Virus record (IMG/VR): IMGVR_UViG_3300010430_000018 | Location: 1-64,000 of that record | Reading direction: 5' to 3' (one strand) | DNA length: 64,000 nucleotides | Origin: a virus | Shown: piece after piece, positions 9,813-38,070 of the stretch | How the letters are laid out: each line of letters begins with the position of its first letter | How positions within the stretch are numbered: the stretch's first letter is position 1 | Notes under the pieces: generated by a model | Seen by the model: the letters and a program-made list of their open reading frames with translations, nothing else | What the model was told of the DNA's origin: nothing | The model's database searches: none | Translations under genes and position numbers: made by a program

Positions 9813-12800
9813 ATGAAAGAGCAAGGGAACACACCTTTACAGACTGCTGTAACTAGCAATCAAAGAGAAACAAGCGTAGTTCCAACTGGACAATTTAATT
9901 TTATACCAGTTGAAGATATGTTTGAAGGACCAGAAACTCAGTTAGCTGAAGTATTAGCTACAGATCCTGGTGCAATTGCAAATGTAGGTGCATATAAAGC
10001 AGATATAGACAAGTATGGTATACCTGCAATGGCAAGTTTAGGTGTAGCTAGACCTTCTTTAGCTACAGGTTTATTTGATCCTGTTAAACAACAGAACCCT
10101 CCTCAAGATACATACAATACAGTAAAGAGTATTTTAAAAGCTGAGTCAGCTGGACCTGCGGCAGATATTGTTGATCCACGTTTTGCTAACATTAGACAAA
10201 GTAATTTTTTAAGGTATTATGAACACCCTGATTTTGCTCAGTTAGGTTTTACTCCTTATGCAGATATGGAATCATATTATAACGCAAACTCTTCAATTTG
10301 GGATGATATGTCTAGAATGAGAGGTGAGTTTGGTAGTTTAGTTGGTTCTGGATTTTCAAGTGTATATAGAAGTATAGGGGATTTATTTGATGATGATAAT
10401 TATTTTAGTGCACCGGATATTGAGTCAGGGATGGAGTTTGAAGATGCTATGGCTGTTGGTAACTCATCAAGAGGTGGTGCATTGGCTTTTACAAATAATT
10501 TACTTTTAAATAGCGGTTATACATTTGGTATAATTGGTTCTATTGCCGTAGAAGAATTAATACTTGCTGGTGCGACATATCTTACTGGTGGTGCTACAAG
10601 TGGGGTTTTGGGAGTAAGATCAGCAATGAATGCCGGAAGACTTGTAAAAAATGCAAAAAACTTTTTTAATATAAAAAACATGCAAGCTTCTACCAGAGCT
10701 TTAATGAATCAATTAAAAAATTATGATGCAGCTAAATCTTTTTGGCAAGCTGCAAAATCTGGAGGAAAAGTAGTAGGTAATATATTAACACCACAAACTT
10801 ATTCTGCACTTAAAAACTTTAAGACTGCTAAAAATGCTACACAAAATGCAAACAATTTGGCTAAAGCAAAAGCTGGATTTGGTGGTTTTTATAGAGATTT
10901 TAGATCAGTAAATTTAGCACTAGCTGAAAGTAAGCTTGAGGGTGGTATGGTTTACAATGAACTTGTAAGAGAAGGTGTAGCTATACAAAAGAAAAAAACA
11001 GGTAATGTTACACCTGAACAAATGGCTCTTATACAAAATCAAGCAGGAGAAGGTGCTTTTTATACTACAATGACAAATGCACCATTAATCTTTTTAAGTA
11101 ATCAAATTGTATTAGGAAATGCAATGGGTGGATTTAATAGATCATTGGGTAAAGTATTTAATGACACATTTAAAAAAGGTTTAAACGGAAGATTGTTTAA
11201 AGGTAAAGGTGTTAAAGATGCTGCCACTGGTAAAATTAAAGATGTATTTGAAGATGCAGGATCTGGTATTAAAGGTTGGTGGACTAAAGTAAAAGCCGGT
11301 GGTGTTAAGGGTAATACTGGAATGGCAATAGCAGCAACAGCAAGATACTTTGCTGCAAACGTAGCAGAGGGTTTACAAGAAATTGGGCAAGAGGCTATTG
11401 CTGTAGGTACTAAAGGTTATTATACTACTGTAATGGAAGATCCATTAGCAGGTGGTGTAGAATTACAGAATGATATGATTCTTTCTGGAATGGGTTCTCA
11501 GTTTAGTGGTCAAGGTGTTGAAACATTTTTGTCAGGATTTTTAATGGGTGGTATTGTACAAGGACCTCAAAAACTGGTGTTTCAAGGAATGCCTGCATTA
11601 TATAATAGAATTAGTGACCCGAAAGCATATAAAGAATACCAAGAGCAAAAAAAGCAATATGTAGCTGATTTAGTTAAAGTACATAATGAAGCATGGAATA
11701 GCACAATTGATGATCCCTCTGGTTTATTTGATCCAACTAAATTAAACTTTTTAGTTCAAAAACAAGTTGCCGCAGCAATGAAGCAAAATGCTTTTGCTCA
11801 AGATAGATTTGGTTTTACAGATGAAAACGACTTTGGTAAATTTCAACAACTTTATACTATTTTTCAAAATGGAACATCTCAGTATTTTAGATCTCAGCTT
11901 ACAGATTTTATGCAAATGAGTGATGAAGAATTAGCTCAAGCATTTCCTAATCAAAAAAGAGATATTAAAAGTGGTAAAGCAAGACAAAGACTTCAAGATT
12001 TAGTTAATAACATAGATAAGTATGAAACTACTTTTGAAAACAACAGAGATAAATTTACAAATCCTTATGATAGATCACAATATGATAAAGGTAGCAGACA
12101 ATATATTTTAGAAGCTATTAAAGAAAAAGCATTTGAACATGCTACATATCTTTATATGTTTACTGAAGACGGATTTAAACGTGCAACAGAAAGAGCTGAT
12201 AGTATTTATACTAACTTAAGTAATGATCCATTATTTGAGAAAATGGCAGCTAATGATATTACAGTATTATTAGACATAGACTCCATTAATAATGAAATTG
12301 GATTGCTATTACAAGATATTGCTGTTCAAGATAAAGATAGCAAAGACGGTAAAAAAGTTATTAAACAGAAAACAGATAAAATTAAAAAACTTCAAGCTGT
12401 TCAAAAAATATTAACTGCTCCAGAAAATTTAACCAAAGATGGCTCTTTTGATAGAAGAAAAATAAACAAACTTACTACAGCATTTCAGGACTATGTTCAA
12501 TTCATGGCACAATCAACTAACTCTTTTGTAGATAGATCCAAAATTCAAGAGGCTCTTAAACAAATGGTTGATTATCATGCATTAAAAGGTAGAGCTAAAG
12601 TTTATGATAAAGCAATTGAGTATTTAAACAACCCAGAAAGACTTAATGAAATTGTTGAAAGACAAATAGAGGTTAATAAAAATATATATAAAAGTCTTAG
12701 TAAAATACATAAGCAACAAATAGAAAAGTATATCAATATAAAAGAAGCTAATACTTTAATGAATAAATTATTTGAAGCTGGTTATGTTGGTGATCCTGAA

Positions 12801-15800
12801 CAAGTAAGGAAATTCTTACTTACAGGAAATGTAAATGAGCTAAAAAACTTTTATGATGAACAAGGTGATATAGATCCTCAATTAGATAAAGTAAAGTATG
12901 ATCAAATTCAAAGATTGCTTGATACATATAGAAAGATGTCAGAAAAAACTGATGACTCAGGAGAAACAACTGAACAAAAGAGTAAAGACATTGAGGTACA
13001 AGAAACAAAAAGTAATCAAGAAGAAATCTTAGAAGAAGCTGATATAGATGTTATTTTACCTGAATCTAATAATACTCCATTATTAAGAGCTTTATTAAAT
13101 AGACAGTACAGAAAGTATGCTGGTACTCAAACTGTTCTTGGTGAAAAAGTTAAAAGCTTTGAGGAGTGGAGAAACGAAGAAGGGTTGAGCTGGCAAAATA
13201 CATTTAATGCATTAAAGAAATTATGGATATCAGGTAAACTTCCAGTATTAGATGCTCAAGGTAATCCTGTATTTGGAGAATTAACTGATGAAGATATTAA
13301 ATCTGAAAAAGGTTTTGAAAATTGGTTAAAAAGCAGAGAGGTATTAGAAAATGATTTAGTAAAAGAAATACTTCAAGCAGCGGGTATACCATTAAATGAA
13401 ATGTATTATACTGAACCAATTGAGTCAGATCCAAGTACAGTTACTCCAGCAGTAGGTAATGAAGATGATGAAATTGATCCTGCTAATCCACCTAAACCAA
13501 GTATTTTTCAATTAGGTGCAACAACAGATGTACTTAAAATAATAACAATAAATCAGCAAGGTCAAGCTGAGGCTTTATATAAATTAATTGATAAGAAAGG
13601 AAATAATGTATCTTCTGAACTATTATCACAAATAGGCGTTACACTTAATGCTTTTAGTGATTCTGGATCTGCTATTGCAGCTATGAGAGAATTAGATAAA
13701 CGTGCACCAGATACTACACCATTTCCTTTTGATGGTCAAATGTTATTTCAAGGTCAATTGGTTTATGATAAAGATGGTAAAGAGTATAGAGTAATCAGCA
13801 CTCCTAAATTTATACAGGGTGGAAACTTACGTTTACTTCCTAATAACTTTGAAGGCAAACCTATTACATTACAAGCAGGGCAGTTTAAAAATTCTTATTC
13901 CATACAAGAATTTAAATTTGACTTATTACCAACAAATGTATCTAGAGTTAATATAACCGATATAAATAAATTGTATCCTCATGCAGATACTGTAAATGGA
14001 CAAAGAGACTATAGTTATGCAGATGATAGGTTAAATATTATATTAGATAACTTAACACAAGAAGAAATTAATAATCTTGAACTTGTTATTACATCAAATA
14101 AAATAGTTAACAACGAATCATCTAAATATATTGTATCAGGTAAAGAAGAAAATCCTTATGTTGATATAAAACAATCTAAGTATAGTATAGGGCTTGCTAT
14201 TCCTGATGGAGACACAAAAACAAAAATTAATAGAATATTAAAAGAAAATAAGATTCCTTTAACAGATAATGAAAATGGTGTATTTGCATATATTCCTAAC
14301 GGTAATGTAACTATGCAAGATGCTCAGCGTAAAACAATAAAATCTTTATCTAACATATCCAGAGAACAAGCGTTAAATACTTTATTTGTTAGTCCTGAGT
14401 TAAGAAATAAATTAGATCCAAAACAAGCTTTAGATTTAGCAAGAAATAATTTTGCTCTGAATGCATTATTGGTTTCATATGCTGATGGTGTAATGAAGAG
14501 TAATGTAGATATAAATATTGTATCATTAAATGATATACCATTTGGATTAGGATTTGTTGCTCAAAAAGGAGGAATGTCTTATGACAATAGTTCAACAAGA
14601 TCTTTAAAAGATTTACGCTATGAACACGCTGATGAAAATGGTAACTATTTTATTTTTGATTTAAAAAGGAAAAAGGGAGGTGCTAGATCAGTAGAATTTA
14701 TTACTTCACTAGAAGGTAGTGAGGGAGTTAAGCTATCTAATAAAATAAAATCTAGACTTGAAAAAGATTTAATGTGGGATGATATTAAGAATGGTACTGA
14801 TAGATATATAGCTATAGTACAATTACCTGATGGATCTTACAGACCTGTTAATTTAAAAGCCCGTACATTTAATAAATCTCAAAGAGATAATTTAGCAGCA
14901 GATCTTGTTAACCGTGCACAAAAAACTAAAAAGGAAAACTTAGATAAAGATGGTAAAGTTAAAGACTTAGCATATAACACTCAATTTAATGAAGAGAATA
15001 TAAGAGGGTCTGTATTCATATCAGCTAAAGAAGGTTATAATATTTCTTTACAAGTTACTCCATGGGGTAAGTTACAACTACAATTATATAATACAGATAT
15101 AGGTAAACAAATAGGAGATACTATTACTATAGATATACCTGCTGGAAATGCAAAAAGTTTTGTATCAGATTCATCTATCAATGGTTATATACAAGCATTA
15201 ATTAATGATTTTAATAATAACGCAGATATAGCAGAATCAGGAAATAAAATATCAAATAAAAACTTTAGACAATCATTTCCAACACAGGTATCTGCTGCTG
15301 ATCTTATAGATGCTACTACTACTAATGTGAGACCAGAAGTAGTATTAAATAATTCAGCTAGAGCAATAGGTGATTCCTCAGCCATTCAAGCTGAAATTGA
15401 TAAGGGTAACATAAAAGAAGATATAATTGAAGTAGTAGAAGAATCTAATTTTACTTCTGAAGAAGCGGAGTTTAGTTTATTAGATTTAAGTGATCCAGCA
15501 TTTGCTGAATTTGCAGCTAAAGATTTTATTACATTACCTTCTGAATACATTAATCATATAGTAAATAAAATTGTTAGAGAGGGTGTGGATAATCTAACAC
15601 CAAGAGAAGTAGAAGTTTATAATATGAGAGCTGCTACTATTAATGTAATGGTTTCTAAAAAAGGTGGCGAAGGTTCACAACCAACACAAGAAGTTAGTAA
15701 GCTTGAAGATATAAAACAAAAACTTGAAACTCTTAAGGCACAGCTGTTAGAAGGTGTACAACCTAAAGAAAGAGGTAAGACTCTTAGAACAAATGAAGAG

Positions 15801-18800
15801 TATCAAAAATTATTAGCTCAAAGAAAAGCAATTGAAAAAGAAGCTAATAAAATTATGTCTTCTTCTGATTTAAGTTTATCAGATGTAGAAGATATAGATA
15901 TCTTTACTGACTGGGCTGCAAGTAACTTACCTAGTTTTATTAATATAGCTGATATAACAACATTAGGAAATAATTTAAAAGCTGGTGGTGTACGTGTTGG
16001 TGCGTTTGTATTAGGATTAAATCATGTAGCTGGTGGACAAAAAGTATCAGGAACTATTTATACTGGTGCAACATCTCCATACAAATATCATGAGGCTTTT
16101 CATGGCGTATTTAGAATGTTACTTAGTAATGAGGAGATAACTAAATATAGAAGTATAGCAAGAAAAGAAGTAAGAGCTAAACTTAGAGCTGAAGGAAAAA
16201 GCTTTGAGAAAGAACTTGAAAAATTTAAAAACTCTGCAGATACATATAGTAACATGACTAGGAAACAACTAGAGAATGAATACTATGAAGAATATTTAGC
16301 AGATGAATTTGAAAAGTTCAAAATAAATCCTAAGAATACAAACACTGATGCAAGTGTTAAATCTTTATTTACTAGAATTATAGAATGGATACAAGGTGTT
16401 TTTAATTCATATTCAAAAAATGAATTACGTACTTTATTTGAAAATATTGACTCAGGTAAATTCAAAGGTGCACAAATAGCTAATAATGAATTTACTACAG
16501 CATTGGATGTAGGAACTACTATAGAGGCTAATGCATTAATACCACATGACTCAATAAGTAAAGATGATACTTTAGGGTTTATTTATTTAGATAGTGATAT
16601 AGCAGATCCTTTAGTAAGAAATATATCAGCTATGTTTTTACAACGTATATCTAAATTAAATGAATCTTATAATCCTAAAGAACAAATGGATTCTATACTA
16701 GATGATTTTGAATTTTTATATAGTATAGATAATCCTATTAATGAAAATAAAACTGATTTACAGAAACAAAAATTAATTGAAATACAATCAGCTTTTGATA
16801 ATTATAGTGATGAGATAAGAAATCAAAGTGTAAAGTATATTAATCAAATAAGTGATAAGGCCAATGAAGAAGAATTTCAAGTAGAAGAGTTTGAAGACTC
16901 TACTGGTTTGAGAACTACATCTGAGTATGATAAAGATGCATCAATGATTGGTGGATTTAGATCTTTATCTAGTCAGCTTAGAGCTTATATAGCAACAACT
17001 TCTGTAGAAGCAACTGATTATTTTGGAAATACTGAATTAACAAACGGTGAGCCAATAATAATAGCTGTTGATTTTGTAGAAGCTTATAATGGTTTACTTA
17101 AAGCTGTTAAAAACTTAACTGATCCTAAACAGATATTACAAAGCATGTATTTCTTTGGACAAGATAATTCAGAAACAGCAGCTGTTGTACGTAGGATCCT
17201 AAATGATGTAGGAATAACTGAACAACAATTGTTAAGTGACAATAGCATTCCGTTAGAAGTTAATTCTCCTTTATTATTTCAGTCAATACTAAAAGGTTTT
17301 GAAAACTTTAGAGTTGACTACTTATTTAATGAAAGGGACAATGCAGGTAACACAATAGTATATTCTGCGTCAGAAAGAGATGATACTAATTCTCAATTAG
17401 ATAGATGGAGTCAAGGATTTATTAGTAAAAGAAAACAACTTTTGTCTAATCCTAATTTGAAAACAGAACTGATAACTTTACTTGCTGAAATTCAAAGTGA
17501 AATAATACCAAACAGCAAAGGTATTAGTAGTACAAAACTTAAGAAAGATACTAAAAAATACTCTGAGCAATTATTTAATCTTTCTGGTATTAAAATTAGT
17601 CCACTTTATCTTCAGTATAGCATGTTATATAACAGATCTAATTTAAACTCTGATCAACGTGTTTTTTTAGATTTAAATAAAAATGAAACGCCATCATTAA
17701 CTCATGATTTAGACGGCAAGCCTTATAAAGAAAGTTCTATAGCTTTAATGAGTCAGTTAATTCAAGACAACAATGATATCTTTGCAGTTGATCAATCTGG
17801 CATGGATTCTAGATTAAAGAAAATGGCAGTTGGTAATGCACCATTTGATGAAACAATTGGAGCATCTGTATTTAAAAATCCTAATGGTGATTTAGTTTAT
17901 GCACACCAACTACCAACATATCATTTAAAAAAGGTAGCACAATTAAATAATGCAGATAGTTTAGAAGAGTTATTAAAATCAGATCCTTATTTGGCAAATA
18001 ACTTTTTATTAAATAATGCAGCTTTTAATCAGCTATCATTAGAATCAAGATTGCAAATAATAAGAGTAGCAGGAAATAAAATAGGTGACCTGTTATCAAC
18101 TGAAGAAGAACTAAATGATTCTTTACAAGGGGTCAAGCAAACTTCAACATATGGTGATTTTACCCCACAAGAGTTTGCTCTGAACTTAATAAATAATTAT
18201 GCAGGCTTATTAAATAGTAAAAGTTATAAAGTATCTAATGTAGAAAGTTTAGATGATGAGGGTAATAAAATTACTACTGGATTAGCACCGGTGCTTATAA
18301 GAGTAATGGAAGCGTCTAATACAGGAGATATGATTAATCTTCCGGTAATTAAGACTGTGGAAATGGTTAATGGAGAAGCTGTTTTAACTGAAGAGGCTGT
18401 AGATATATATATTGATAAAATTAGAACTGAGTTTGCTAGAATAAACAGAGAAGCAAATAATGCAACAAAAACTCAAGAAGATATATTAGGATATACTGAC
18501 GGAAGAGCACTTACATTTTTTAACACTAAGACATTAATGTCTGAAGAACAACAGACTTTTCTTATTAACGCAGCAATTCAAGCAGGTAATGCAGGTAATG
18601 TTATCACACTAGATGATGCTTTAGCAGGAACAGTGACAGTTGCACAACAAACTGGTGAGGTTACCAATGAGGTATCTGGAATGACAGCATTAAGAGAAGG
18701 TGTAGTTGATAGCTTAGAAAGCCGTTTTCAAGTATTTGAACAGTTAATAGATGAATTAAAAATAGAAGACCAAATATCTAATCAAGTAAAATCAGGTCCT

Positions 18801-21800
18801 ATTATAGCAGCTGGTGTAAGTAGAACTGCTCTTGTACAATCTGCTTCATTATTAAATCTTAATGATAACTACAGACATAATCTTAAACAGATATTTTTTA
18901 ATGATGCTATAAATTCATACTCTATAAATGAGATTCTTTTAGGTGATCAAGCTGTTTCTTTAAAAGATTCAGTAGATCAGATTAAAAGAGCTAAAATGCA
19001 AAACGGTGCATACTATAGTGCATACTCAGCTATAACGGCTCCATCTCATGGTGTTATCCATCCTGTAGATGATATAAGTTTAGTTACATTAGAAGAACCG
19101 GAAGACAGTGGAATTGATATTGCCGATGCTCAAATGTATATTACAACAAAAGCATTTAGATATATGTGGTTTGGTTTTGGTAAATTAACAGCAGCTCAAG
19201 CTGAATTGATTAATAGAATTGAGACAGGTCAAACAATAACTTCTGATTCAGTATTTGGAAATGAAGCTACACCTGAAGGTTATGCTAAGATGCAAGCATT
19301 ATTAAATTCCAAAAAGTTTGTTTATGGTGATGGAAGTACATTTCTTAAAATGTCTGCTTTTACTTTAACACCAGAATATACATCTATATGGGATGGAGAT
19401 ATAAAGATGTGGTTGCCAAAACCGGGACTGGAATCACTTCATAATCTAAGGGTAAAGTTAGAAGCTATTGAAAAAGAAAAAGAAACAATTGCAATTGCTG
19501 CTCCATTAAGTGCAGTTAAAATGAAAAAACAACGTGTTAATTCACTTGAAGAACTAGCCGATGGTAATCCATTTACCAAGGGTTATACTACATTAGATGC
19601 TAGATTTATGGGTCTACAACAATTAAATCCATCTAATAAATTAGAGCAAGTTGATCCTACACAAATAAAACAGATATTAACATCTGAACAAAATGATAAT
19701 CAATTTGTTCCAGCATTAAATATGACTGTTGGTGAAATTAGAACAGAATATAATAAAGCTGTATCAGAAAGAGTTACTTTAAGATTTAAAGATAAAAGAA
19801 ATTTAATATTTAGTTTTGATGGTGCAATGGATGAATTAAGCATATCTCAAGCTTCTGGTAAAGTTACACCTAAGCTTGCTGCATTTTTAGAGTTTGCATT
19901 AAGCGGTCTTAAAGCCTCACAATCTAGTAGCCAGATACTTGAATTCTTTTCTATGACTGGTGGAGTACCAAATTATAACTTAAATAATCAAATCACAGTA
20001 AGAAAGTTTGAGCAATTATTTTTAAGCTACTTTAGTAAAGGGGTATTTTCAGAAAGAACACCTGGCTTAGGTCTTACATTAGTATCAGACTTTGGAAATA
20101 AAGTTTATAGGAGAGTATTTGAAATTAAAGATGGAATACCAATTAGATCTGAAATTATAAGAAGAGCTGCTTGGCAAGGAAATGAAAATGATTTACTTAA
20201 TATTGATTCTTTAACACAAGAGAATATAGGTCCAGAAGGCGTTGTTGTATTAGATAGATTAAGACATGGTGTAATGGAATATGATGCTAATGGTGAACCT
20301 ACAGGTCAAAGATATACTGAGATGATGATGCCATCACATCATAAATCTGTAATGGATTTAATTGAAAATACACCTTCAGCAACTATGCCTGAAGTAATAT
20401 CAAAAATGTTTGGTGTAAGAATACCATCTCAAGATAATCACTCAGCAATGAATATTAAATGGGTTGATTTTATGCCTGTGTATTTTGGTTCATCAGCAAT
20501 GTTTGCTAGAGAATTAATTGAGGTATCTGGTGCAGATTTTGATATTGATAAAGTCTTTGCACAGTTTAAAGACTTCTATGTAAAAGATGGAGAATTTTTT
20601 GAGTATGGTAATAAAAATACAGTTGAAGAAAATTATTCAGATTATATTAGATATGTAAATACTAATGTAAGTAAGTCTGGAACAATATACTCTGAAGCTT
20701 ATTTAACTTATGATGAAAATTTAGATGCAGCTAAAATTGAAAATAGCCTTTCAGAATCTGAAGAAAAAGCATACTATCAATTTCTAACAAAACAAAATAT
20801 TGTTACAGATGCAGGATTAAAAGAAGCAGGTGTAAAGGCATTACAAATGCTTGGTTTACCTATTACCAAAGCACAATACGGTGAGTATGTTGCTAAATTT
20901 GGTGAACCATATGCTGCTCCATTAAATAACAAAATTTTAGATTATAAATATGCATTACTTGGAAATGATAGTGTAGCATCTGGAGAAAATCCTATTTCTT
21001 ATTCACCTGCTACATTAGATATACTTGAAACTACATTATCATTATTAGCTGAAGAATCAAAATTATTTGAGAATAGAATGTTAGAGGAAAATAATGATGT
21101 AGATGATTTGGTTGGTAAGATACTTGCTTTCAAAGCAAATAAAGGAGCTTCAATTGGAGCTGCTGTATTACCTAATTTATATCTGAGTTTGTTAACTGAA
21201 TATGATATTGATTTAAAAAGCCCAATTAGCATAGATGGTGTTACTTACGACTCATTTAAATATACTATAGAAAAAAAGAATGAGGGTAATCAAAGAAAAC
21301 AAGATACAATATCCTCTCTTATTACTATGGCTACAGATAATGCTAAAGAGCGTTTGTTTTCTAAGCTGGGTTTAAATAGACATGCATTAGGTTTGGTATC
21401 AATGATGACTTCATTAAGTGTACCTATTAGAACATCTATATTATTAATAAACAATCCCGTTATACAAGATTTGTATTCTCAAGCATTAAACAAAAAAGAT
21501 AAGTTTGATCCGGGCATTGAAAAATTAGTAGAAAACAAAATAAAGGAATTAGTTGAAGATGGATCTAAATCAACATTAAAAGTTAACGATGAATTATTAC
21601 TAAATGCCATTAATGAACCAGAGGGGGTAAGTGATCAAGATACTGTAAGTATACTGTCAAAGTTTAAAGAGTTTATGGATCTTGAAACTTTTACAAATAA
21701 AATGAGTGCACCCACAAGTCTTACTAAAGGTCTAGGTAAAGATATTGCAACTGTATTAGATAAGAAAAAAGATATACAAACTTTGCTTGATCCCAAAGCT

Positions 21801-23366
21801 CCACTAGATTTAACTAAAATTTATAGCAGTAATACATGGAATAGTACATATTTAAAGTTGTTTAAACAGCTTACTGATGAATTATTACCGGTAACATTTT
21901 TAAGTAGTTCACCTGTTTTTCAAGATATATTAGATAATGTAGTTGACAATATAGATACAAGGCCTACAACATTAAAAACAGAAGACGTGCAAAATATTGC
22001 ATTGGATCTTTTATCTTATCTTAATATAAAAGGTTATCAGTATAATCTTTTACAAAACGGGACGCTTAATGAAAAAGTATTAAGTAATGATTTAATATAT
22101 CCTAATTCAGATAGATCTATTGTTGATGTTATAAATGAAATAAAAGAAGTATTAGAATCAAAAAATGAATCAAATTTCTTTATTGATAATTTTGTTATAC
22201 CAGAATCTGCATCCGATGTAGGTAATAATTCAGGTCTTAATATAGCAATGGCTAATACATTTAGAAACTTATCTGCTCCACAAAAGGTGGATTTACAAAA
22301 TAGCTTTGCACAACTATATGGCTCTCTTGATACTAAAAATCAAGCTCAGACAATAATTAACTATATCATGGTTAAAGATGGGTTACAATTAAGATATGGT
22401 AGTTTATTAGAAGCAATTGCCCCATTTACAATAAATAAATTTTTATCCCATATTAATACTGTTGAACAAGCGGTTAGAGGAGATGTTTCTTTTGAATCTG
22501 TATTTGGGATATCTCAACAAGAGTTAACAAAAGAATTTACAGAAGGTTTTCTTGAGTCTAACATTAATGGATCAAAGCTTTGGACTTTTAAAAGGTCTAC
22601 AGTAACGGGAAGTTTAAAAAAGGGAGTTCAAGTAAAAGACAATGAAGTAACAGTAAACTGGATGGCAGTTGGTTTAAGTAGAGATGTTATACCAAACTAT
22701 GTTAGAATTGTTGATGTACAAGGTGTAATCAAAACATATAAGTTAGATTCAGAATCTAAAACATATAAGGAAATAGATCCGTTTGGTTCTAATCAACAAA
22801 CACATATTGGTTTTATGTTTGGACCTAGACCTACGTATAAAGAAGTAAGAGCTTTTGTAGATTCTAAAAATGGAACAACACAAAAAGATCCATCAGATTT
22901 TACAGTAGCAATAGATGATGCCGTAGCAATACAAGAGGAAATATTAAAAGCTGATAATGTAAATATTGAGGCAAATGAAAATAGTATTGAAGTACAACTT
23001 GATCCTGAAGCAACTATGACTAATGTTGCTGACACAGCATTACTGTTAGAGCAACTTGGGTTAAATCAAGATGCACAAGATCAAAGTGAATTAGAAGCAA
23101 ATGTTATTGATAATGTTGATACATCATTACCTGAAATAGATGAGGTGGAAAGCCTGATGACTTTAGATTTTGAAATGGAACTAGAAGAACAATTTCCAAC
23201 ACTTACTAATTTTTGGGATGCTAACATACAAGGAAATAAAGAAGCAATGGCATCTTTGAGAGAAAATAATATCCTATCTTTGGAAGACTTCATTGATGAA
23301 TATAATAACGGAATCTATGAAAATGAAGAAAGTTTCATAGATCAAATTAAAAAATGTAATTTATAA
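9813..23366 (+). CDS. Giant virion protein: metallopeptidase motif plus crAss-like RNA polymerase
   Basis: 4517 aa in one uninterrupted frame. Residues about 225-265 and 500-590 are hydrophobic and G/A-rich and could cross a membrane. A zinc-peptidase motif HEAFH is at 2093-2097, with acidic YYEEYLADEF about 60 residues later. Residues about 3170-3600 carry the marks I know from crAss-like virion RNA polymerases: KMSAFTLTPEY, then APLSAVKMK, then RIPSQDNHSAM, then GADFDIDKVF. Asp3575, 3577 and 3579 match the metal-binding NADFDGD loop of double-psi-barrel polymerases. The C-terminus is acidic. Characterised relatives are packaged and injected to transcribe early genes. This protein is about twice as long as the ~2200-aa enzyme of Cellulophaga phage phi14:2, suggesting fusion with ejection and protease regions. 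Residues 800-2000 are unassigned. Confidence 0.75.
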   Translation: MKEQGNTPLQTAVTSNQRETSVVPTGQFNFIPVEDMFEGPETQLAEVLATDPGAIANVGAYKADIDKYGIPAMASLGVARPSLATGLFDPVKQQNPPQDTYNTVKSILKAESAGPAADIVDPRFANIRQSNFLRYYEHPDFAQLGFTPYADMESYYNANSSIWDDMSRMRGEFGSLVGSGFSSVYRSIGDLFDDDNYFSAPDIESGMEFEDAMAVGNSSRGGALAFTNNLLLNSGYTFGIIGSIAVEELILAGATYLTGGATSGVLGVRSAMNAGRLVKNAKNFFNIKNMQASTRALMNQLKNYDAAKSFWQAAKSGGKVVGNILTPQTYSALKNFKTAKNATQNANNLAKAKAGFGGFYRDFRSVNLALAESKLEGGMVYNELVREGVAIQKKKTGNVTPEQMALIQNQAGEGAFYTTMTNAPLIFLSNQIVLGNAMGGFNRSLGKVFNDTFKKGLNGRLFKGKGVKDAATGKIKDVFEDAGSGIKGWWTKVKAGGVKGNTGMAIAATARYFAANVAEGLQEIGQEAIAVGTKGYYTTVMEDPLAGGVELQNDMILSGMGSQFSGQGVETFLSGFLMGGIVQGPQKLVFQGMPALYNRISDPKAYKEYQEQKKQYVADLVKVHNEAWNSTIDDPSGLFDPTKLNFLVQKQVAAAMKQNAFAQDRFGFTDENDFGKFQQLYTIFQNGTSQYFRSQLTDFMQMSDEELAQAFPNQKRDIKSGKARQRLQDLVNNIDKYETTFENNRDKFTNPYDRSQYDKGSRQYILEAIKEKAFEHATYLYMFTEDGFKRATERADSIYTNLSNDPLFEKMAANDITVLLDIDSINNEIGLLLQDIAVQDKDSKDGKKVIKQKTDKIKKLQAVQKILTAPENLTKDGSFDRRKINKLTTAFQDYVQFMAQSTNSFVDRSKIQEALKQMVDYHALKGRAKVYDKAIEYLNNPERLNEIVERQIEVNKNIYKSLSKIHKQQIEKYINIKEANTLMNKLFEAGYVGDPEQVRKFLLTGNVNELKNFYDEQGDIDPQLDKVKYDQIQRLLDTYRKMSEKTDDSGETTEQKSKDIEVQETKSNQEEILEEADIDVILPESNNTPLLRALLNRQYRKYAGTQTVLGEKVKSFEEWRNEEGLSWQNTFNALKKLWISGKLPVLDAQGNPVFGELTDEDIKSEKGFENWLKSREVLENDLVKEILQAAGIPLNEMYYTEPIESDPSTVTPAVGNEDDEIDPANPPKPSIFQLGATTDVLKIITINQQGQAEALYKLIDKKGNNVSSELLSQIGVTLNAFSDSGSAIAAMRELDKRAPDTTPFPFDGQMLFQGQLVYDKDGKEYRVISTPKFIQGGNLRLLPNNFEGKPITLQAGQFKNSYSIQEFKFDLLPTNVSRVNITDINKLYPHADTVNGQRDYSYADDRLNIILDNLTQEEINNLELVITSNKIVNNESSKYIVSGKEENPYVDIKQSKYSIGLAIPDGDTKTKINRILKENKIPLTDNENGVFAYIPNGNVTMQDAQRKTIKSLSNISREQALNTLFVSPELRNKLDPKQALDLARNNFALNALLVSYADGVMKSNVDINIVSLNDIPFGLGFVAQKGGMSYDNSSTRSLKDLRYEHADENGNYFIFDLKRKKGGARSVEFITSLEGSEGVKLSNKIKSRLEKDLMWDDIKNGTDRYIAIVQLPDGSYRPVNLKARTFNKSQRDNLAADLVNRAQKTKKENLDKDGKVKDLAYNTQFNEENIRGSVFISAKEGYNISLQVTPWGKLQLQLYNTDIGKQIGDTITIDIPAGNAKSFVSDSSINGYIQALINDFNNNADIAESGNKISNKNFRQSFPTQVSAADLIDATTTNVRPEVVLNNSARAIGDSSAIQAEIDKGNIKEDIIEVVEESNFTSEEAEFSLLDLSDPAFAEFAAKDFITLPSEYINHIVNKIVREGVDNLTPREVEVYNMRAATINVMVSKKGGEGSQPTQEVSKLEDIKQKLETLKAQLLEGVQPKERGKTLRTNEEYQKLLAQRKAIEKEANKIMSSSDLSLSDVEDIDIFTDWAASNLPSFINIADITTLGNNLKAGGVRVGAFVLGLNHVAGGQKVSGTIYTGATSPYKYHEAFHGVFRMLLSNEEITKYRSIARKEVRAKLRAEGKSFEKELEKFKNSADTYSNMTRKQLENEYYEEYLADEFEKFKINPKNTNTDASVKSLFTRIIEWIQGVFNSYSKNELRTLFENIDSGKFKGAQIANNEFTTALDVGTTIEANALIPHDSISKDDTLGFIYLDSDIADPLVRNISAMFLQRISKLNESYNPKEQMDSILDDFEFLYSIDNPINENKTDLQKQKLIEIQSAFDNYSDEIRNQSVKYINQISDKANEEEFQVEEFEDSTGLRTTSEYDKDASMIGGFRSLSSQLRAYIATTSVEATDYFGNTELTNGEPIIIAVDFVEAYNGLLKAVKNLTDPKQILQSMYFFGQDNSETAAVVRRILNDVGITEQQLLSDNSIPLEVNSPLLFQSILKGFENFRVDYLFNERDNAGNTIVYSASERDDTNSQLDRWSQGFISKRKQLLSNPNLKTELITLLAEIQSEIIPNSKGISSTKLKKDTKKYSEQLFNLSGIKISPLYLQYSMLYNRSNLNSDQRVFLDLNKNETPSLTHDLDGKPYKESSIALMSQLIQDNNDIFAVDQSGMDSRLKKMAVGNAPFDETIGASVFKNPNGDLVYAHQLPTYHLKKVAQLNNADSLEELLKSDPYLANNFLLNNAAFNQLSLESRLQIIRVAGNKIGDLLSTEEELNDSLQGVKQTSTYGDFTPQEFALNLINNYAGLLNSKSYKVSNVESLDDEGNKITTGLAPVLIRVMEASNTGDMINLPVIKTVEMVNGEAVLTEEAVDIYIDKIRTEFARINREANNATKTQEDILGYTDGRALTFFNTKTLMSEEQQTFLINAAIQAGNAGNVITLDDALAGTVTVAQQTGEVTNEVSGMTALREGVVDSLESRFQVFEQLIDELKIEDQISNQVKSGPIIAAGVSRTALVQSASLLNLNDNYRHNLKQIFFNDAINSYSINEILLGDQAVSLKDSVDQIKRAKMQNGAYYSAYSAITAPSHGVIHPVDDISLVTLEEPEDSGIDIADAQMYITTKAFRYMWFGFGKLTAAQAELINRIETGQTITSDSVFGNEATPEGYAKMQALLNSKKFVYGDGSTFLKMSAFTLTPEYTSIWDGDIKMWLPKPGLESLHNLRVKLEAIEKEKETIAIAAPLSAVKMKKQRVNSLEELADGNPFTKGYTTLDARFMGLQQLNPSNKLEQVDPTQIKQILTSEQNDNQFVPALNMTVGEIRTEYNKAVSERVTLRFKDKRNLIFSFDGAMDELSISQASGKVTPKLAAFLEFALSGLKASQSSSQILEFFSMTGGVPNYNLNNQITVRKFEQLFLSYFSKGVFSERTPGLGLTLVSDFGNKVYRRVFEIKDGIPIRSEIIRRAAWQGNENDLLNIDSLTQENIGPEGVVVLDRLRHGVMEYDANGEPTGQRYTEMMMPSHHKSVMDLIENTPSATMPEVISKMFGVRIPSQDNHSAMNIKWVDFMPVYFGSSAMFARELIEVSGADFDIDKVFAQFKDFYVKDGEFFEYGNKNTVEENYSDYIRYVNTNVSKSGTIYSEAYLTYDENLDAAKIENSLSESEEKAYYQFLTKQNIVTDAGLKEAGVKALQMLGLPITKAQYGEYVAKFGEPYAAPLNNKILDYKYALLGNDSVASGENPISYSPATLDILETTLSLLAEESKLFENRMLEENNDVDDLVGKILAFKANKGASIGAAVLPNLYLSLLTEYDIDLKSPISIDGVTYDSFKYTIEKKNEGNQRKQDTISSLITMATDNAKERLFSKLGLNRHALGLVSMMTSLSVPIRTSILLINNPVIQDLYSQALNKKDKFDPGIEKLVENKIKELVEDGSKSTLKVNDELLLNAINEPEGVSDQDTVSILSKFKEFMDLETFTNKMSAPTSLTKGLGKDIATVLDKKKDIQTLLDPKAPLDLTKIYSSNTWNSTYLKLFKQLTDELLPVTFLSSSPVFQDILDNVVDNIDTRPTTLKTEDVQNIALDLLSYLNIKGYQYNLLQNGTLNEKVLSNDLIYPNSDRSIVDVINEIKEVLESKNESNFFIDNFVIPESASDVGNNSGLNIAMANTFRNLSAPQKVDLQNSFAQLYGSLDTKNQAQTIINYIMVKDGLQLRYGSLLEAIAPFTINKFLSHINTVEQAVRGDVSFESVFGISQQELTKEFTEGFLESNINGSKLWTFKRSTVTGSLKKGVQVKDNEVTVNWMAVGLSRDVIPNYVRIVDVQGVIKTYKLDSESKTYKEIDPFGSNQQTHIGFMFGPRPTYKEVRAFVDSKNGTTQKDPSDFTVAIDDAVAIQEEILKADNVNIEANENSIEVQLDPEATMTNVADTALLLEQLGLNQDAQDQSELEANVIDNVDTSLPEIDEVESLMTLDFEMELEEQFPTLTNFWDANIQGNKEAMASLRENNILSLEDFIDEYNNGIYENEESFIDQIKKCNL

Positions 23367-31547: not shown

Positions 31548-33173
31548 TTAGCCTTCACAACTTGAACATTCTAATATATTTCTAGCAAAGTCTTGAGCGC
31601 TACTCTTACTAAATTGATAGTATAAAGTTTTTACACCTTCTTCCCAAGCATACAAATACAATTGATTAATTTGTTTAGCAGATACTGATGGGTCAATCAT
31701 TAAGTTTAGTGACTGAGACTGATCAATATACTTTTGTCTTTGTGCTGCCTGTAAAACAAGTTCTTTAGGTGATATTTCAACAAAAGACTTAAACACTTCT
31801 TTAGTTGGAAAATCAAGATGTTGTACACTTCCGTCTTTACTAAGTATAGACTTCCAAGTTTTATCTGTATTTAAGCCATACTTTTCTAATTCACATTCTA
31901 AGAATGGGTTTTTATAAACCGTTTTAGACTTAGCAAGATCTTTAATAAAGTAATTAGATTTGATAGGTTCTATACCCATAGACACAGCACCATGAATAAA
32001 ACTGCTGGACTTAGTAGGAGCAATAGCCATTAGTGTAGTATTGGCATAACCTTCTCTAATAGATGTATAGCCATATTCTGAATGTAACTTTCTAGATGCT
32101 ATTTCACTTCTATCTTTAATTGTTCTAAATATTTCAGAGTTTAAACCTTTAGCCTTTAAAGAATCAAAGTTTATTAATTTTGATTGAAATAAAGAATGAT
32201 AACCTAATACACCTAAACCAATTGCTCTATGCTTTTTAGCAAAGTTATGAGCTCTTTTCATACCGGGCATAGTTTCTGACTTAATTATAAACTCATCCAT
32301 TACGGCATTTAAAAAGTATACATATGTTTGTACTGCATCTGTTTCTTTTATTTCTTCCCAGTGTAATAAATTAATAGATCCAAGACAACATACAAAAGAG
32401 TTGTAGCTATCTGTAGGCAATTGAATTTCAGAACATAAATTTGAAGCTGTAATTTCCAAACCTAACTCTTTATATGGTGAATTATTATTTGAGTTATCTT
32501 TAAACATAATATAAGGAAAACCAAATTCAGATCTACGTTGTATGATCTTAGCCCATATCTTACGTTTCTTTCTGTCTCCGGCTTTCATTTCTTCCATCCA
32601 GGTATCACTAACTGTGATGCCATACTGTAAGTTTTGTATTGGGTTTCCCTCAGTACCAATATCTAAGAACTCTTCAATATCTTTATGTTCTACAGGTAGA
32701 TATACTGCGCATGCTCCACGTCTTGCTTCAGATTGTTTACACACATCCACAACAGTGTCATATATTCTAGCATAGTGTATGGGCCCATCTGCAAAGCCAC
32801 CTGTAGATATAACACTACCTCTTGGTCTTATATTACCTAAGTAAGCACTAGTACCCCCTCCATATTTAGACATCATTCCTATCTCTCGTCCTGCATTAAG
32901 TATGCTATCTAGATTATCATCAATGTTAGATCCATAACAACTAATTGGTAAGCCTTTTTGTTTTCCAAAGTTAATCCATACAGGAGTTGACAAAGAGTAA
33001 TAACCTTTTGCCATATAATCCTCAAATTTTTCTGCAAAACCTTTTATATTCAAATACTTTTCTGCCTTGATAGCAATGTCTTTGATTCTTTGTTCAGGGC
33101 TTTCTGATATATATCCTCTTGATAAAAATGTGCGGCTGTCTTCATTTAGCCAGTAATATTTATTATATTCCAT
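31548..33173 (-). CDS. nrdA: Ribonucleoside-diphosphate reductase large subunit (class Ia)
   Basis: 541 aa; reduces ribonucleotides to deoxyribonucleotides with NrdB, supplying dNTPs for phage replication. Seen: the redox cysteine in LPISCYGSN (Cys79), the YGGGTSA loop, the active-site NLCSEIQL (Asn245, Cys247, Glu249), the partner cysteine in FVCCLGSINL (262/263), the radical-transfer pair in TLYYQF, and the C-terminal shuttle CSSCEG (Cys536, Cys539). It is shorter than bacterial NrdA (about 750 aa) because the N-terminal ATP-cone is absent, so dATP feedback through that domain is likely lost, as in several phage enzymes. It follows nrdB by 14 bases. No glutaredoxin or CxxC thioredoxin lies nearby, so it presumably uses host reductants. 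Confidence 0.95.
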   Translation of the reverse strand: MEYNKYYWLNEDSRTFLSRGYISESPEQRIKDIAIKAEKYLNIKGFAEKFEDYMAKGYYSLSTPVWINFGKQKGLPISCYGSNIDDNLDSILNAGREIGMMSKYGGGTSAYLGNIRPRGSVISTGGFADGPIHYARIYDTVVDVCKQSEARRGACAVYLPVEHKDIEEFLDIGTEGNPIQNLQYGITVSDTWMEEMKAGDRKKRKIWAKIIQRRSEFGFPYIMFKDNSNNNSPYKELGLEITASNLCSEIQLPTDSYNSFVCCLGSINLLHWEEIKETDAVQTYVYFLNAVMDEFIIKSETMPGMKRAHNFAKKHRAIGLGVLGYHSLFQSKLINFDSLKAKGLNSEIFRTIKDRSEIASRKLHSEYGYTSIREGYANTTLMAIAPTKSSSFIHGAVSMGIEPIKSNYFIKDLAKSKTVYKNPFLECELEKYGLNTDKTWKSILSKDGSVQHLDFPTKEVFKSFVEISPKELVLQAAQRQKYIDQSQSLNLMIDPSVSAKQINQLYLYAWEEGVKTLYYQFSKSSAQDFARNILECSSCEG

Positions 33174-33187
33174 AATTGTTGGTTTAA

Positions 33188-34168
33188 TTAGAATAAGTCA
33201 TCAACCGTGATGCTTTTACTTTTTTTATTGTAATCAACACTTTTTTTGTAGAAAAAATCTCCTTCTTTTGTTCCAGTAATCTCTATATCAAACCATTCTA
33301 CTGATTTTAATATATCATAATTAACTTCAAAGATTGGTTTCATACCTATCTTTTCTAAAGAATTATTAAATCTATTTTTTATAAAGTGTTCTATAGTAGT
33401 TTGTGGTAAAAAATTGAGCTCACCTTTTTCAAAGATCCAATCTAGTATGCCACATTCTGCTCTATATGCTTTTCTACATGCAGAATAAATAAGCTCTTGA
33501 AATTCTACATCAAACCACTCAGGGTTTTCTTTTTTGATGATATTAATAATCTCAGCACCAAAGTTACCATGTATCTCTTCTTCTTTACTGGTAGCCTCAA
33601 CAACATTAGATATACCCTTAAGCACATTCTTTTCTTTATTAAAACTCATCATGATTAAGAACTGACTAAATAAACTTACGTGCTCTATAAATAAAGAAAA
33701 CAAAAGTACAGATTTAGTGTACATTTTATCATCTCTAGAACGTGTTCCATCAAGATACTTTTTTAAATACTTAAGTCTTCCTTTAATAGCAGGTACTTCA
33801 ACTACTGATTGAAATTCTTTTTCTAAACCTAATATTCTAAGTAGTCTAGCATATGCATCTTTATGACGTACCTCTGACTCAGCAAAAGTAAAACCAACGT
33901 CACCTACTTCTGTAATAGGCATGCGTTTATATAGGTCACCCCAAAAAGTCTTTACATTAACTTCTATTTGTGCAATAGCTAACATAGTTTTTTTTATAAC
34001 ATCTTTTTCATTATTTGAAATTGTTATTTTAAAATCTTGTATATCTTCTGTAAAATTAAATTCTGTGTCTATCCAGTAGGAATGTCTTATTGCATCTTTG
34101 TATGCTAGTAGTTGTGGGTATTCATAAGGTAATATGTTTGTTCTGCTTTTAAAAATGTTTTTATTCAT
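33188..34168 (-). CDS. nrdB: Ribonucleoside-diphosphate reductase small subunit
   Basis: 326 aa; holds the di-metal site and tyrosyl radical for NrdA. The ligand pattern is intact: FTED, AQIEVN (Glu69), ESEVRHKDAY (Glu99, His102, radical Tyr106 with E. coli spacing), FIEHVSLFS and EEEIHGNF. The presence of the tyrosine supports class Ia rather than Ic. The C-terminal tail (SITVDDLF) is the expected docking peptide for NrdA. First gene of the nrdB-nrdA-membrane protein group. An intrinsic terminator of the upstream small gene lies about 43 bases before its start, so it likely has its own promoter in the AT-rich leader, though no clear box is seen. Confidence 0.95.
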   Translation of the reverse strand: MNKNIFKSRTNILPYEYPQLLAYKDAIRHSYWIDTEFNFTEDIQDFKITISNNEKDVIKKTMLAIAQIEVNVKTFWGDLYKRMPITEVGDVGFTFAESEVRHKDAYARLLRILGLEKEFQSVVEVPAIKGRLKYLKKYLDGTRSRDDKMYTKSVLLFSLFIEHVSLFSQFLIMMSFNKEKNVLKGISNVVEATSKEEEIHGNFGAEIINIIKKENPEWFDVEFQELIYSACRKAYRAECGILDWIFEKGELNFLPQTTIEHFIKNRFNNSLEKIGMKPIFEVNYDILKSVEWFDIEITGTKEGDFFYKKSVDYNKKSKSITVDDLF

Positions 34169-35478: not shown

Positions 35479-36342
35479 ATGAATATCTTAACTGATGTAT
35501 TAAGTTTAATTAAAAGATCTGTTTTTGCAAAGAAAGCAAGTTTAGATGATGTTCTTATCTTAGGAGTTAATGAACAACCTGAAATGACAGGGGTTGCATC
35601 ACCAATACCCTATAAAAGCATAAAGGTTATAAAAGTGAGAGATTTAAAGGTTGCTGCTGAACATTGTGGGCAGGCTAATTCTCCAGCTACTCCAGCTGCT
35701 GGCACAGGACAAGTATATCAGAAGACAGTATCTGATGAAGTTGAAGAGACTTGTACTGTATATTTCAGATCTCTGAAGTCTCTGAGTAGCAACCTAACTC
35801 TTGCTAATTCATCAGATGATGATTATGTAGAGATAACAACAAGTGGTGAGCCAAATACAGCTGCAAGCGTAGGTACTGGATTTGCTATTTGGAAAGACAA
35901 AGTTGGTGAAACATTAAACTTTAGATCTTTAGTAGGAGGTACAAATGTAACATTGGCACAAACTGCAAATGAAATAACAATAAATGCCACAGATAGTAAG
36001 CCATATACAAGCTATGTAGCATTAATAGCACAAGCGGGTACAGCGGCTCCGGTGGCTACAGTATTAGAAAATACAACAGGTAAAACATTTACTTTTGTCC
36101 GTACAAGTGTAGGAAATTATGATGTAACATATGATTCAGCTGTTGCTGACGCAGACAAAGTAGTTATAGATTTAAGTATGACATTTAGAGGGGCAGGGAC
36201 AGCCTATGCAAATGCAAATGTTCATAGTACAAATACTAATGGATTTAAAATTGTTGCAGTAACCCAAGACTCTTCTGGATTAGAGATAGCAAGTGATGAT
36301 GTATTTCTTAGAACACCACTAACAATAAAAATATATTCGTAA
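35479..36342 (+). CDS. Beta-rich structural protein, probably tail or fibre related
   Basis: 287 aa. A short N-terminal helix (NILTDVLSLIKRSVFAKKAS) and hydrophobic strands (SIKVIKVRDLKV) are followed by T/S/A/N-rich beta sequence with a fibre-like LVGGTNVTLAQTANEITINA stretch, often seen in phage tail fibres. It ends in a strand SPLTIKIYS-like (TPLTIKIYS). Its stop overlaps the holin ATG (TAATG). Its length and composition fit a baseplate, fibre or head-fibre protein; exact role unknown. Confidence 0.6.
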   Translation: MNILTDVLSLIKRSVFAKKASLDDVLILGVNEQPEMTGVASPIPYKSIKVIKVRDLKVAAEHCGQANSPATPAAGTGQVYQKTVSDEVEETCTVYFRSLKSLSSNLTLANSSDDDYVEITTSGEPNTAASVGTGFAIWKDKVGETLNFRSLVGGTNVTLAQTANEITINATDSKPYTSYVALIAQAGTAAPVATVLENTTGKTFTFVRTSVGNYDVTYDSAVADADKVVIDLSMTFRGAGTAYANANVHSTNTNGFKIVAVTQDSSGLEIASDDVFLRTPLTIKIYS

Positions 36343-36815
36343 TGAGCACAAAACCTAAAAAGAAATTTAGTGAAACTAAAGTAGGAAAATTCTTAACAGA
36401 TAAAGTACCTTCTATAGTGGGTTTAGTTGGTAATGCACTACCAGATGCTGGTGTATTAGGTTTGGTTAAAGGTTTAATACAAAAAGAACCAGACATTGTA
36501 TTACCTCCAGAGGATAAAGAAAAAGCATTAAAACTATTAGAACAAGACATGGTTGAAATGCAAGAGGTAAGTAAGAGATGGCAAGCAGACATGAAGTCAG
36601 ATTCATATTTATCAAAAAATACAAGACCATTAACTCTGATATTTTTGACTGTTTCATTAGTTATCTTTATCTTGTTAGATGGTTTTGACATAGACTTTAG
36701 TATTGATGGAGGCTGGGTAGATTTACTTAAGTCACTTTTAATAACTGTCTATGTAGCTTATTTTGGTTCTAGAGGAGCTGAAAAATTTAAAACAATTAGT
36801 AATAACAACAAATAA
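36342..36815 (+). CDS. Holin-like membrane protein
   Basis: 157 aa. The N-terminal half is soluble and helical. After VSKRWQADMKSDSYLSKNTR come two transmembrane helices (PLTLIFLTVSLVIFILLDG and WVDLLKSLLITVYVAYFGSR) and the ending GSRGAEKFKTI. This pattern (DmkSDSxLSKNtRP...YFGSRGaEK) matches the three-TM/GTA-type holin family (PF11351-like). Holins time lysis by opening the inner membrane. No matching endolysin is adjacent; the NlpC/P60-like domain at about 2865-3160 is the nearest candidate hydrolase in the window. Confidence 0.7.
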   Translation: MSTKPKKKFSETKVGKFLTDKVPSIVGLVGNALPDAGVLGLVKGLIQKEPDIVLPPEDKEKALKLLEQDMVEMQEVSKRWQADMKSDSYLSKNTRPLTLIFLTVSLVIFILLDGFDIDFSIDGGWVDLLKSLLITVYVAYFGSRGAEKFKTISNNNK

Positions 36816-37108: not shown

Positions 37109-37384
37109 ATGCCAGCAAAAAAAATTAAACCTGCTAAAAAAATAGGAACTATGCCTAAAAGTGTAGTATCTTATAAAAAAGGAGGGTCTAAAAAATCTGG
37201 TAAAAACTGGATCAAAGGTGCAATTAAAAAGCCGGGTGCTTTAAAAGCTACTGCAAAAAGAGCAGGTGCTATGAAAGCTGATGGAACTATTAAAAAATCT
37301 TGGCTCAGAGAAAAAGCAAAAGGTAGTGGTAAGACTGCACAGCGTGCTAGACTTGCTTTAACATTAGGTAAAATGAAAAAATAA
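37109..37384 (+). CDS. Basic phage protein, DUF5872-like, 91 aa
   Basis: Lysine-rich start (MPAKKIKPAKKIGTM), a YKKGGSKKSG motif, then a conserved-looking core: WIKGAIKKPGALKATAKRAG, then DGTIKKSWLREKAKGSGKTA, then RARLALTLGKM. I recognise this core from phage and large-virus small basic proteins (DUF5872-type; name given from memory). Probably virion-associated and DNA-binding. Its stop overlaps the start of the CDGSH peptide (TAATG). Confidence 0.6.
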   Translation: MPAKKIKPAKKIGTMPKSVVSYKKGGSKKSGKNWIKGAIKKPGALKATAKRAGAMKADGTIKKSWLREKAKGSGKTAQRARLALTLGKMKK

Positions 37385-37470
37385 TGAATAATAAAGGAGT
37401 ACAATGTATATGTGGATGCACACAAAATCCTGATGGGTTATGTGATGGTTCACATTTATTAAATAAATAA
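37384..37470 (+). CDS. 28-aa CDGSH-type iron-sulfur peptide
   Basis: ATG overlaps the previous stop. The peptide MNNKGVQCICGCTQNPDGLC then DGSHLLNK carries the CDGSH signature: CxC, a Thr where S/T is expected, NP, and CDGSH, which in known proteins ligates a [2Fe-2S] cluster through three Cys and one His. There is one residue more between the CxC and the CDGSH than in the usual motif, plus an extra Cys. It is only the motif, with almost nothing around it. The 5-base gap to the next gene supports translation. Cluster binding is inferred from the motif. Confidence 0.65.
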   Translation: MNNKGVQCICGCTQNPDGLCDGSHLLNK

Positions 37471-37474
37471 AACT

Positions 37475-37720
37475 ATGGGAGCATCAAAGAAAAAAATATC
37501 TTTTCCTATGAAGGATCAAAGATATGTTAGAGAAACAACTAATAGTTATTATAATCCAACTTCTGTAACTCAAGCTATTCAACAAAAAAAGAATAGAAAG
37601 GCAGTAGAAGCAAAGATTAAAATGGCTAAAAAAACAAATTTAAATCCACCACAAAAGTCTACTAGAGCTAAAGAACCTGTTCAGTCAGCTGCTTTTAAGA
37701 ATGGATATAGAAATAGTTAA
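37475..37720 (+). CDS. Small basic protein of unknown function, 81 aa
   Basis: Sequence MGASKKKISFPMKDQRYVRE and on; K, N and Q rich, probably partly disordered, with no membrane segment or known motif. Located 4 bases after the CDGSH peptide and 5 before the decoration-like protein, within the late small-protein operon. Likely virion-associated by context. Confidence 0.55.
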   Translation: MGASKKKISFPMKDQRYVRETTNSYYNPTSVTQAIQQKKNRKAVEAKIKMAKKTNLNPPQKSTRAKEPVQSAAFKNGYRNS

Positions 37721-37725
37721 AAATT

Positions 37726-38070
37726 ATGGCACAATTAACAGCCCAACAGATATCACAATCTGGTTTAGAACCAACGTATGTCACACCCGCAGTGGGTGGT
37801 GATCAATTGGCTAATACAGGAAAAGAATTTTTTCATGTACAAAATAATGGTGCAGTTGCAATGACTGCAACTTTAGTACCTTATGTTACTACCTATGAAG
37901 ATCCTTCATTAGGTAAATTAGTTAAAGAAAATGCGGTTTTAAATTTAGCAGCAGGTGAAGAAGGTTTTTTGGGGCCGTTTGAAATTGCTGCCTTCAGTAG
38001 TACTGACGGTAATATAACAATAACATGCTCAGCTCAAACAAGTATATTGGTTGCAGCTTTGTATTTATAA
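37726..38070 (+). CDS. Capsid decoration or head-fibre-like small beta protein
   Basis: 114 aa. Begins AQLTAQQISQSGLEPTYVTP, then VGGDQLANTGKEFFHVQNNG, AAGEEGFLGPFEIAAF, and ends TCSAQTSILVAALYL. This order (Gly-Leu-x-Pro-Thr-Tyr, F-x-HV-x-N-x-G, GPF, VAAL end) is that of a common small phage structural protein often placed near capsid genes, which I take as a decoration protein. All-beta by appearance. Structural role fairly likely; exact place in the virion unknown. Confidence 0.6.
   Translation: MAQLTAQQISQSGLEPTYVTPAVGGDQLANTGKEFFHVQNNGAVAMTATLVPYVTTYEDPSLGKLVKENAVLNLAAGEEGFLGPFEIAAFSSTDGNITITCSAQTSILVAALYL

Follow-up and report, generated by a model that had tools for sequence, protein, structure and literature searches.

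The window analysed here, bases 1-64,000 of the 82,420-base virus record IMGVR_UViG_3300010430_000018, encodes a 28-residue protein (MNNKGVQCICGCTQNPDGLCDGSHLLNK), herein termed micro-CDGSH, whose open reading frame (ORF) is a real, translationally coupled and conserved gene under purifying selection, common to phages and bacteria. From its sequence we propose, with a probability of about 55%, that it is a motif-only, NEET-like CDGSH microprotein, in which a 17-residue loop would carry a redox-active metal. This metal centre would most likely be a labile [2Fe-2S] cluster, and the protein would have a redox role in the bacterial host and a late-expressed copy in the phage.

The ATG of micro-CDGSH shares the final A of the TAA stop codon of the upstream gene for a basic protein, forming a TAATG overlap, and the translation contains the CxC, NP and CDGSH elements, as a preliminary description of this DNA had stated. 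That description did not mention that C10 and C20 are separated by nine residues, compared to eight in canonical CDGSH proteins. The residues C8, C10, C20 and H24 are the putative metal ligands. The 28-residue protein alone matched nothing in family scans of Pfam, PHROGs or NCBIfam, and a tblastn search against named phages returned nothing even at an E value of 10, the query probably being too short; relatives were therefore sought with DNA-level patterns.

The pattern C-x-C-G-x-T-x-N-x-x-G-x-C-D-G-[ST]-H was found at at least 119 viral loci in IMG/VR, the viral and bacterial locus counts given here all being lower bounds. A search of this kind, which the preliminary description had suggested, recovered relatives in other phage DNA. 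With the T, N and G positions left free, the scan again gave at least 120 loci, whereas a control with one extra spacing residue (x10) gave three in the whole viral collection; the spacing of nine residues (x9, more than 120 loci overall) is thus a fixed class, with the family motif C-x-C-G-x-[ST]-x-x-x-x-G-x-C-D-G-[ST]-H. The viral control scans imposed the G after CxC, a constraint from which the Flavobacteriaceae search described below was free. Together with the window copy (L120), the viral loci of the first pattern yield 85 distinct proteins, mostly of 21-30 residues, whose ATG precedes the first cysteine by 1-10 codons. By our own arithmetic the full motif amounts to ~48 bits, so that hardly any random match is expected in any collection. 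As such a pattern recurs at at least 119 viral and at least 120 bacterial loci, compared to three at the control spacing, the motif is not due to chance. A chance or non-coding ORF could be suspected from the very short length and from the missing Pfam, PHROGs and NCBIfam matches of the protein itself, but the motif statistics, spacing control, synteny, dN/dS ratio and cross-phylum recurrence all counter this explanation, which the recurrence already refutes and to which we assign a negligible probability.

Since residues fixed by a search pattern are uninformative on conservation, the latter was judged from the syntenic copies, the Flavobacteriaceae search and a sample of cores unselected for the residue in question. 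In that sample, which includes a few evident chance matches, (S/T)7 (CDGSH numbering) is present in 46 of 49 distinct cores and Gly11, before the third cysteine, in 43 of 49. The columns C8, C10, G11, T13, G18, C20, D21, G22 and H24, numbered as in the window protein, are invariant in 54 aligned relatives.

The syntenic sample comprises 44 loci picked solely via the adjacent tail gene (phrog_16194-type) and hence independently of the motif. The micro-ORF is present in 17 of them, 286-348 nucleotides upstream of the tail gene, and all 17 copies keep the cysteine and histidine ligands together with D-G-(S/T), including variants that fall outside the first pattern. The conservation of these ligands, on which the preliminary description had let its claim depend, is therefore borne out. 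Many of the contigs are near-identical, leaving nine distinct micro-ORF sequences including that of the window; over their core, the Nei-Gojobori dN/dS is 0.157/0.908, or ~0.17, showing clear purifying selection. The other 27 loci lack the micro-ORF, which is an accessory gene. A strict coupling to the 91-residue basic protein was rejected, as eight loci have both genes, nine have micro-CDGSH alone and three have the basic gene alone.

The same motif pattern occurs at at least 120 loci of bacterial contigs, sampled as one genome per species. Marine Flavobacteriaceae, Polaribacter and Cryomorphaceae have free genes of 25-30 residues, typically MKxDRPKCGCGNTQNPEGYCDGSHxNK; Paenibacillus and Brevibacillus have 25-residue forms (MGKCACGNTQNxEGNCDGSHAKKDK), and Opitutae have tandem chains of 54-63 residues with two motifs each. 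When 250 genomes of Flavobacteriaceae, the family of Polaribacter, were searched loosely, 17 gave a match; three of these are evident chance hits and the others carry the same motif. The gene is found in only ~6-7% of the sampled Flavobacteriaceae genomes. The chromosomal copies rule out a phage-specific origin. Of the preliminary description, which had presented a novel phage microprotein, what stands is a genuine, conserved and coupled gene missed by the family libraries; its restriction to phages does not, given the chromosomal copies in Flavobacteriia and Bacillales and the tandem forms in Opitutae.

In Bacteroidota, micro-CDGSH lies between a YceI protein of the lipid/isoprenoid-binding type and an NADPH-dependent flavin mononucleotide (FMN) reductase. 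In 57 of 92 loci, a YceI-family gene (PF04264, E value 1.3e-24) with the same orientation as the motif ends at most 100 nucleotides upstream of it; the FMN reductase gene (PF03358, E value 3.2e-24) starts directly downstream in 16 of 92, and one or the other adjoins micro-CDGSH in 62 of 92. Although the loci cannot be counted as independent of one another, the arrangement extends across several lineages. Genes for MarR, HxlR and pirin are close by in subsets of the Bacteroidota loci. The order in a metagenome-assembled genome of Bacillales (L183) is pirin-like, MarR-like, micro-CDGSH and flavodoxin-fold reductase-like, and a nitroreductase-like gene lies near micro-CDGSH in three Paenibacillus loci, all these names being read by eye.

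Comparison with the CISD/NEET family (PF09360) reveals both shared and divergent features. The CDGSH consensus is Phi-C-x-C-x-x-(S/T)-x-x-x-P-Phi-C-D-G-(S/T/A)-H, and the 53-residue PcCISD is the smallest solved form (PMC3174974). The micro family shares the order C-x-C...C-D-G-(S/T)-H, with the four ligands C2, C4, C13 and H17 (three cysteines and one histidine) invariant in the 54 aligned relatives, as well as (S/T)7 and D14-G15-(S/T)16; a hydrophobic or aromatic residue precedes the third cysteine in most members, and both single-motif and tandem-motif versions exist. PF09360 (zf-CDGSH) is the family matched by most members, with 30 of 54 micro forms (best E value 7e-4) and 10 of 10 tandems (best E value 4e-4), the micro-family match spanning only positions 32-48 of the 48 in the profile. 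The profile matches in the PDB include the CDGSH proteins 3tbn (E value 0.0025) and 3tbm. As the best PDB match, 3tbn (MmCISD) relates the two-motif Opitutae chains to CISD3/MiNT and type 6 CISDs, which likewise have two motifs in one chain but from which they differ in a linker of only ~10-15 residues, the lack of a sandwich and a spacing of nine in both motifs.

Several observations weigh against the proposed reading. The micro family has nine residues between the second and third cysteines, where NEET proteins have eight; Pro11 is absent, its equivalent being a mostly conserved Gly; and the chains of 25-30 residues, with ~3-10 residues before the motif and few after it in the free forms, lack the β-strands, the P motif and the intertwined β-sandwich dimer, so that the surroundings known to hold the cluster are missing. 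A tandem member scored 16.6 bits, below the PF09360 gathering cut-off of 29.5, and AlphaFold gave an uninformative model of the tandem form (predicted local distance difference test score 52, predicted template modelling score 0.24). To these points are added the missing family match of the window protein, the rarity of the gene in Flavobacteriaceae, and the neighbour clusters common around the phage copies, among which neither YceI nor FMN reductase was seen. In addition, Phi1 is replaced by K/Q, and a Pro two positions before the Pro11 equivalent is found in only 123 of 209 micro cores. Because the spacing, Pro11, Phi1 and sandwich depart from the consensus and the scores fall below the cut-off, the family is not filed under PF09360; to judge from sequence, it appears to be a motif-only form, either derived or parallel.

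The gap to the known CDGSH domain is bridged, at the level of sequence, by viral CDGSH proteins of canonical spacing (L310-L429, e.g. L310, L331, L363 and L395; MRQCTCGRSNAYPYCDGTHKLKK...), which are mostly motif-only and 24-60 residues long. Similar to the x9 class, their motif starts near residue 3-10 and they have no β-sandwich, whereas they keep the spacing of eight and Pro11, and most of them exceed or come close to the cut-off of PF09360. Those tested matched PF09360 with E values of 2e-6 to 9e-9, only over the cluster loop (positions 29-48).

The motif also occurs as a terminal tail of larger proteins. In bacteria, micro-CDGSH is joined to YceI-like proteins (L191, L206), to a large 'MGCSNCSTCEVSE' protein that we take to be RicT/PSP1-like (L182, L272, L283) and to a protein resembling ribosomal protein bS16 (L262). 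In phages, a micro-CDGSH tail (...MSKTKCRKNGGCACGRTENPNGLCDGSHLK) is found at the C-terminus of XkdF-type prohead proteases (L017, L022, L027, L062, L109, L118, L458, L459, L461 and L481; PF14550 assignment tested in L118). A 109-residue phage protein with an N-terminal micro-CDGSH is encoded beside a GroES-like gene of 95 residues (L053, L067, L103 and ~10 more); its helical remainder has no match in Pfam, PHROG or PDB, and a suspected role as a cyclic-nucleotide sponge was dropped as unsupported by any of the three. Phage GroEL-like (530-548 residues) and GroES-like genes also lie near micro-CDGSH in L038 and L119. CDGSH tails with a spacing of eight or nine were further seen on a family of phage proteins of ~110-125 residues (L314, L328, L432 and L449), which appear Sm/WYL_2-like by eye.

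Such a distribution among unrelated proteins suits the main rival to the [2Fe-2S] reading, a zinc knuckle in which the three cysteines and the histidine would bind a single Zn(II) in a SEC-C-like manner (CxCx8-9C-x(0-3)-H). The peptide would then be a tiny protein- or nucleic-acid-binding tag, which would suit its occurrence as a detachable tail of XkdF proteases, bS16, RicT/PSP1-like proteins and others. The zinc knuckle is a serious alternative because the sandwich is missing and a residue is inserted: the inserted residue, together with the lost Pro11, departs from the strict consensus of the [2Fe-2S] loop, the short peptide has no hydrophobic sandwich, and its flanks are basic (K/R/N). The SEC-C zinc motif likewise starts with C-x-C-x8-C and is small, but it ends in C[CH] and lacks the D-G-(S/T)-H of the micro family. 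This D-G-(S/T) between the last cysteine and the histidine, together with (S/T)7, is specific to the CDGSH [2Fe-2S] loop and is kept. Moreover, in Pfam and PDB profile scans of micro and tandem members, CDGSH was outranked by no zinc family; the Pfam scans did not return SEC-C, and the other weak matches are scattered. The neighbours are redox and flavin genes. NEET proteins themselves were initially misnamed zinc fingers, and they rely on the cluster for their fold (PMC10937110). On balance, we consider single-zinc binding less likely than the cluster.

We favour the [2Fe-2S] cluster because D-G-(S/T)-H with (S/T)7 is the signature of the NEET loop, and because the chemistry of mitoNEET, which is reduced by the FMNH2 that flavin reductase produces and in turn reduces oxygen or ubiquinone (PMC9490426), fits an operon with FMN reductase and YceI. 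Type 5 CISDs even carry a fused FMN-binding domain (PMC3174974). As NEET proteins need the cluster to fold, a peptide folded by its cluster with no other core is possible in principle. We thus picture a 17-residue loop whose three cysteines and one histidine would hold a small redox-active centre, most likely a labile [2Fe-2S] cluster, the metal folding the peptide in place of the known CDGSH β-sandwich; the microprotein would probably pair with a second copy. In the host, it may link reduced flavin to a quinone-type acceptor by electron transfer, or act in redox sensing, like mitoNEET in vitro. Phages of these bacteria would bring their own copy, expressed late beside lysis and tail genes, which may supply or modulate a redox or metal function, or assist virion or lysis proteins as a small accessory. 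This role in the phage is the least certain part of the proposed mechanism. As YceI and FMN reductase are missing from the common phage neighbours, a redox role there would be one carried over from the hosts.

The open-licence full-text literature yielded no paper devoted, to judge by its title, to such a CDGSH protein of phages, and none with both CDGSH and YceI, and the main phylogenetic study of the CDGSH domain contains nothing on phages; the x9 CDGSH family of ~25-30 residues in marine phages and bacteria is apparently previously undescribed. Absent from Pfam, PHROGs and NCBIfam, the gene has been overlooked in the annotation of marine phages and Flavobacteriia. If the [2Fe-2S] assignment is true, micro-CDGSH would be a natural cluster-binding protein of half the length of the smallest solved CDGSH form with no need for a β-sandwich, with implications for minimal or early iron-sulfur proteins and for the capability of the CDGSH loop by itself. 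Among natural proteins of their kind with a metal cluster, the members would probably be the smallest, and the conserved YceI, micro-CDGSH and FMN reductase operon provides a bacterial genetic setting for the study of how CDGSH proteins may act on flavins and quinones. A more far-reaching proposal, to which we give slightly less than even odds, is that free [2Fe-2S] proteins of 25-30 residues, the smallest natural iron-sulfur proteins, connect flavin reductases with the YceI/quinone system as redox partners in marine bacteria, and were repeatedly acquired by phages, in the form of free genes as well as of plug-in tails on phage proteins.

The surroundings of the phage copies point to a further explanation, namely that the phage protein acts in the virion or the lysis cassette, for example in metal delivery to, or timing of, an M15 endolysin or holin, and is not a redox partner borrowed from the host, whatever its metal. 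Holin-like or M15-peptidase genes lie within 2.5 kb in 71 of the 91 phage loci with a free micro-ORF, a transmembrane protein is encoded by the nearest upstream gene in 51 of 91, and a direct motif check found that 43 of 90 have an M15 peptidase signature in the 1.2 kb downstream. The window copy itself sits between a holin and a tail gene, and the fusion to the XkdF-type prohead protease (PF14550) points the same way. By contrast, the position is variable, some copies being beside GroEL/GroES (L038, L119) or other genes; the gene is present in only 17 of the 44 syntenic loci and is thus dispensable for that module; and bacteria carry it with no phage genes nearby. We regard a structural or lysis accessory as a tentative explanation, well short of an even chance. 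A cluster (c7) that had seemed a separate gene downstream of the phage micro-ORF was set aside, as it seems to be the M15 peptidase gene read in a different frame.

Within the window, micro-CDGSH belongs to a late run of genes in the order holin, two basic proteins, micro-CDGSH, an 81-residue protein and a tail protein (Table 1).

Table 1. Positions of micro-CDGSH, its motif and neighbouring genes in the window.
Feature	Position	Strand	Evidence or remark
Holin (phrog_3427)	36342..36815	+	E value 2.7e-17; ~570 nucleotides upstream of the micro-ORF, late/lysis neighbourhood
91-residue basic protein (phrog_20603-like)	37109..37384	+	TAA stop overlaps the micro-ORF ATG
micro-CDGSH gene, 28 residues	37384..37470	+	Translation, relatives, dN/dS; stop codon TAA
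17-codon motif C8-x-C10-G-C-T13-x-x-x-x-G18-x-C20-D-G-S-H24	37405..37455	+	Aligned relatives, unselected sample
81-residue protein	37475..37720	+	Starts 4 nucleotides past the micro-ORF stop
114-residue tail protein (phrog_16194)	37726..38070	+	E value 8e-11; neutral anchor for the syntenic loci

The 81-residue protein has no significant family in the family scan, and a relative of it (cluster c25) comes next after the micro-ORF in nine phage loci. A phrog_20603 stretch, a basic repeat of the KADGT... type, is present both in the 91-residue protein and in a 1007-residue protein (549-3572) of the same phage.

The window has a G+C content of 31% and encodes proteins matching phage DNA polymerase, primase, DnaB-type helicase and class I ribonucleotide reductase; no near relative was found among the named phages compared with it. 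The genes of the large and small subunits of ribonucleotide reductase (phrog_84 and phrog_86) lie on the reverse strand at 31548-34168. A single ORF of 4517 residues spans 9813-23366 and may encode a giant virion protein like those of crAss-like phages.
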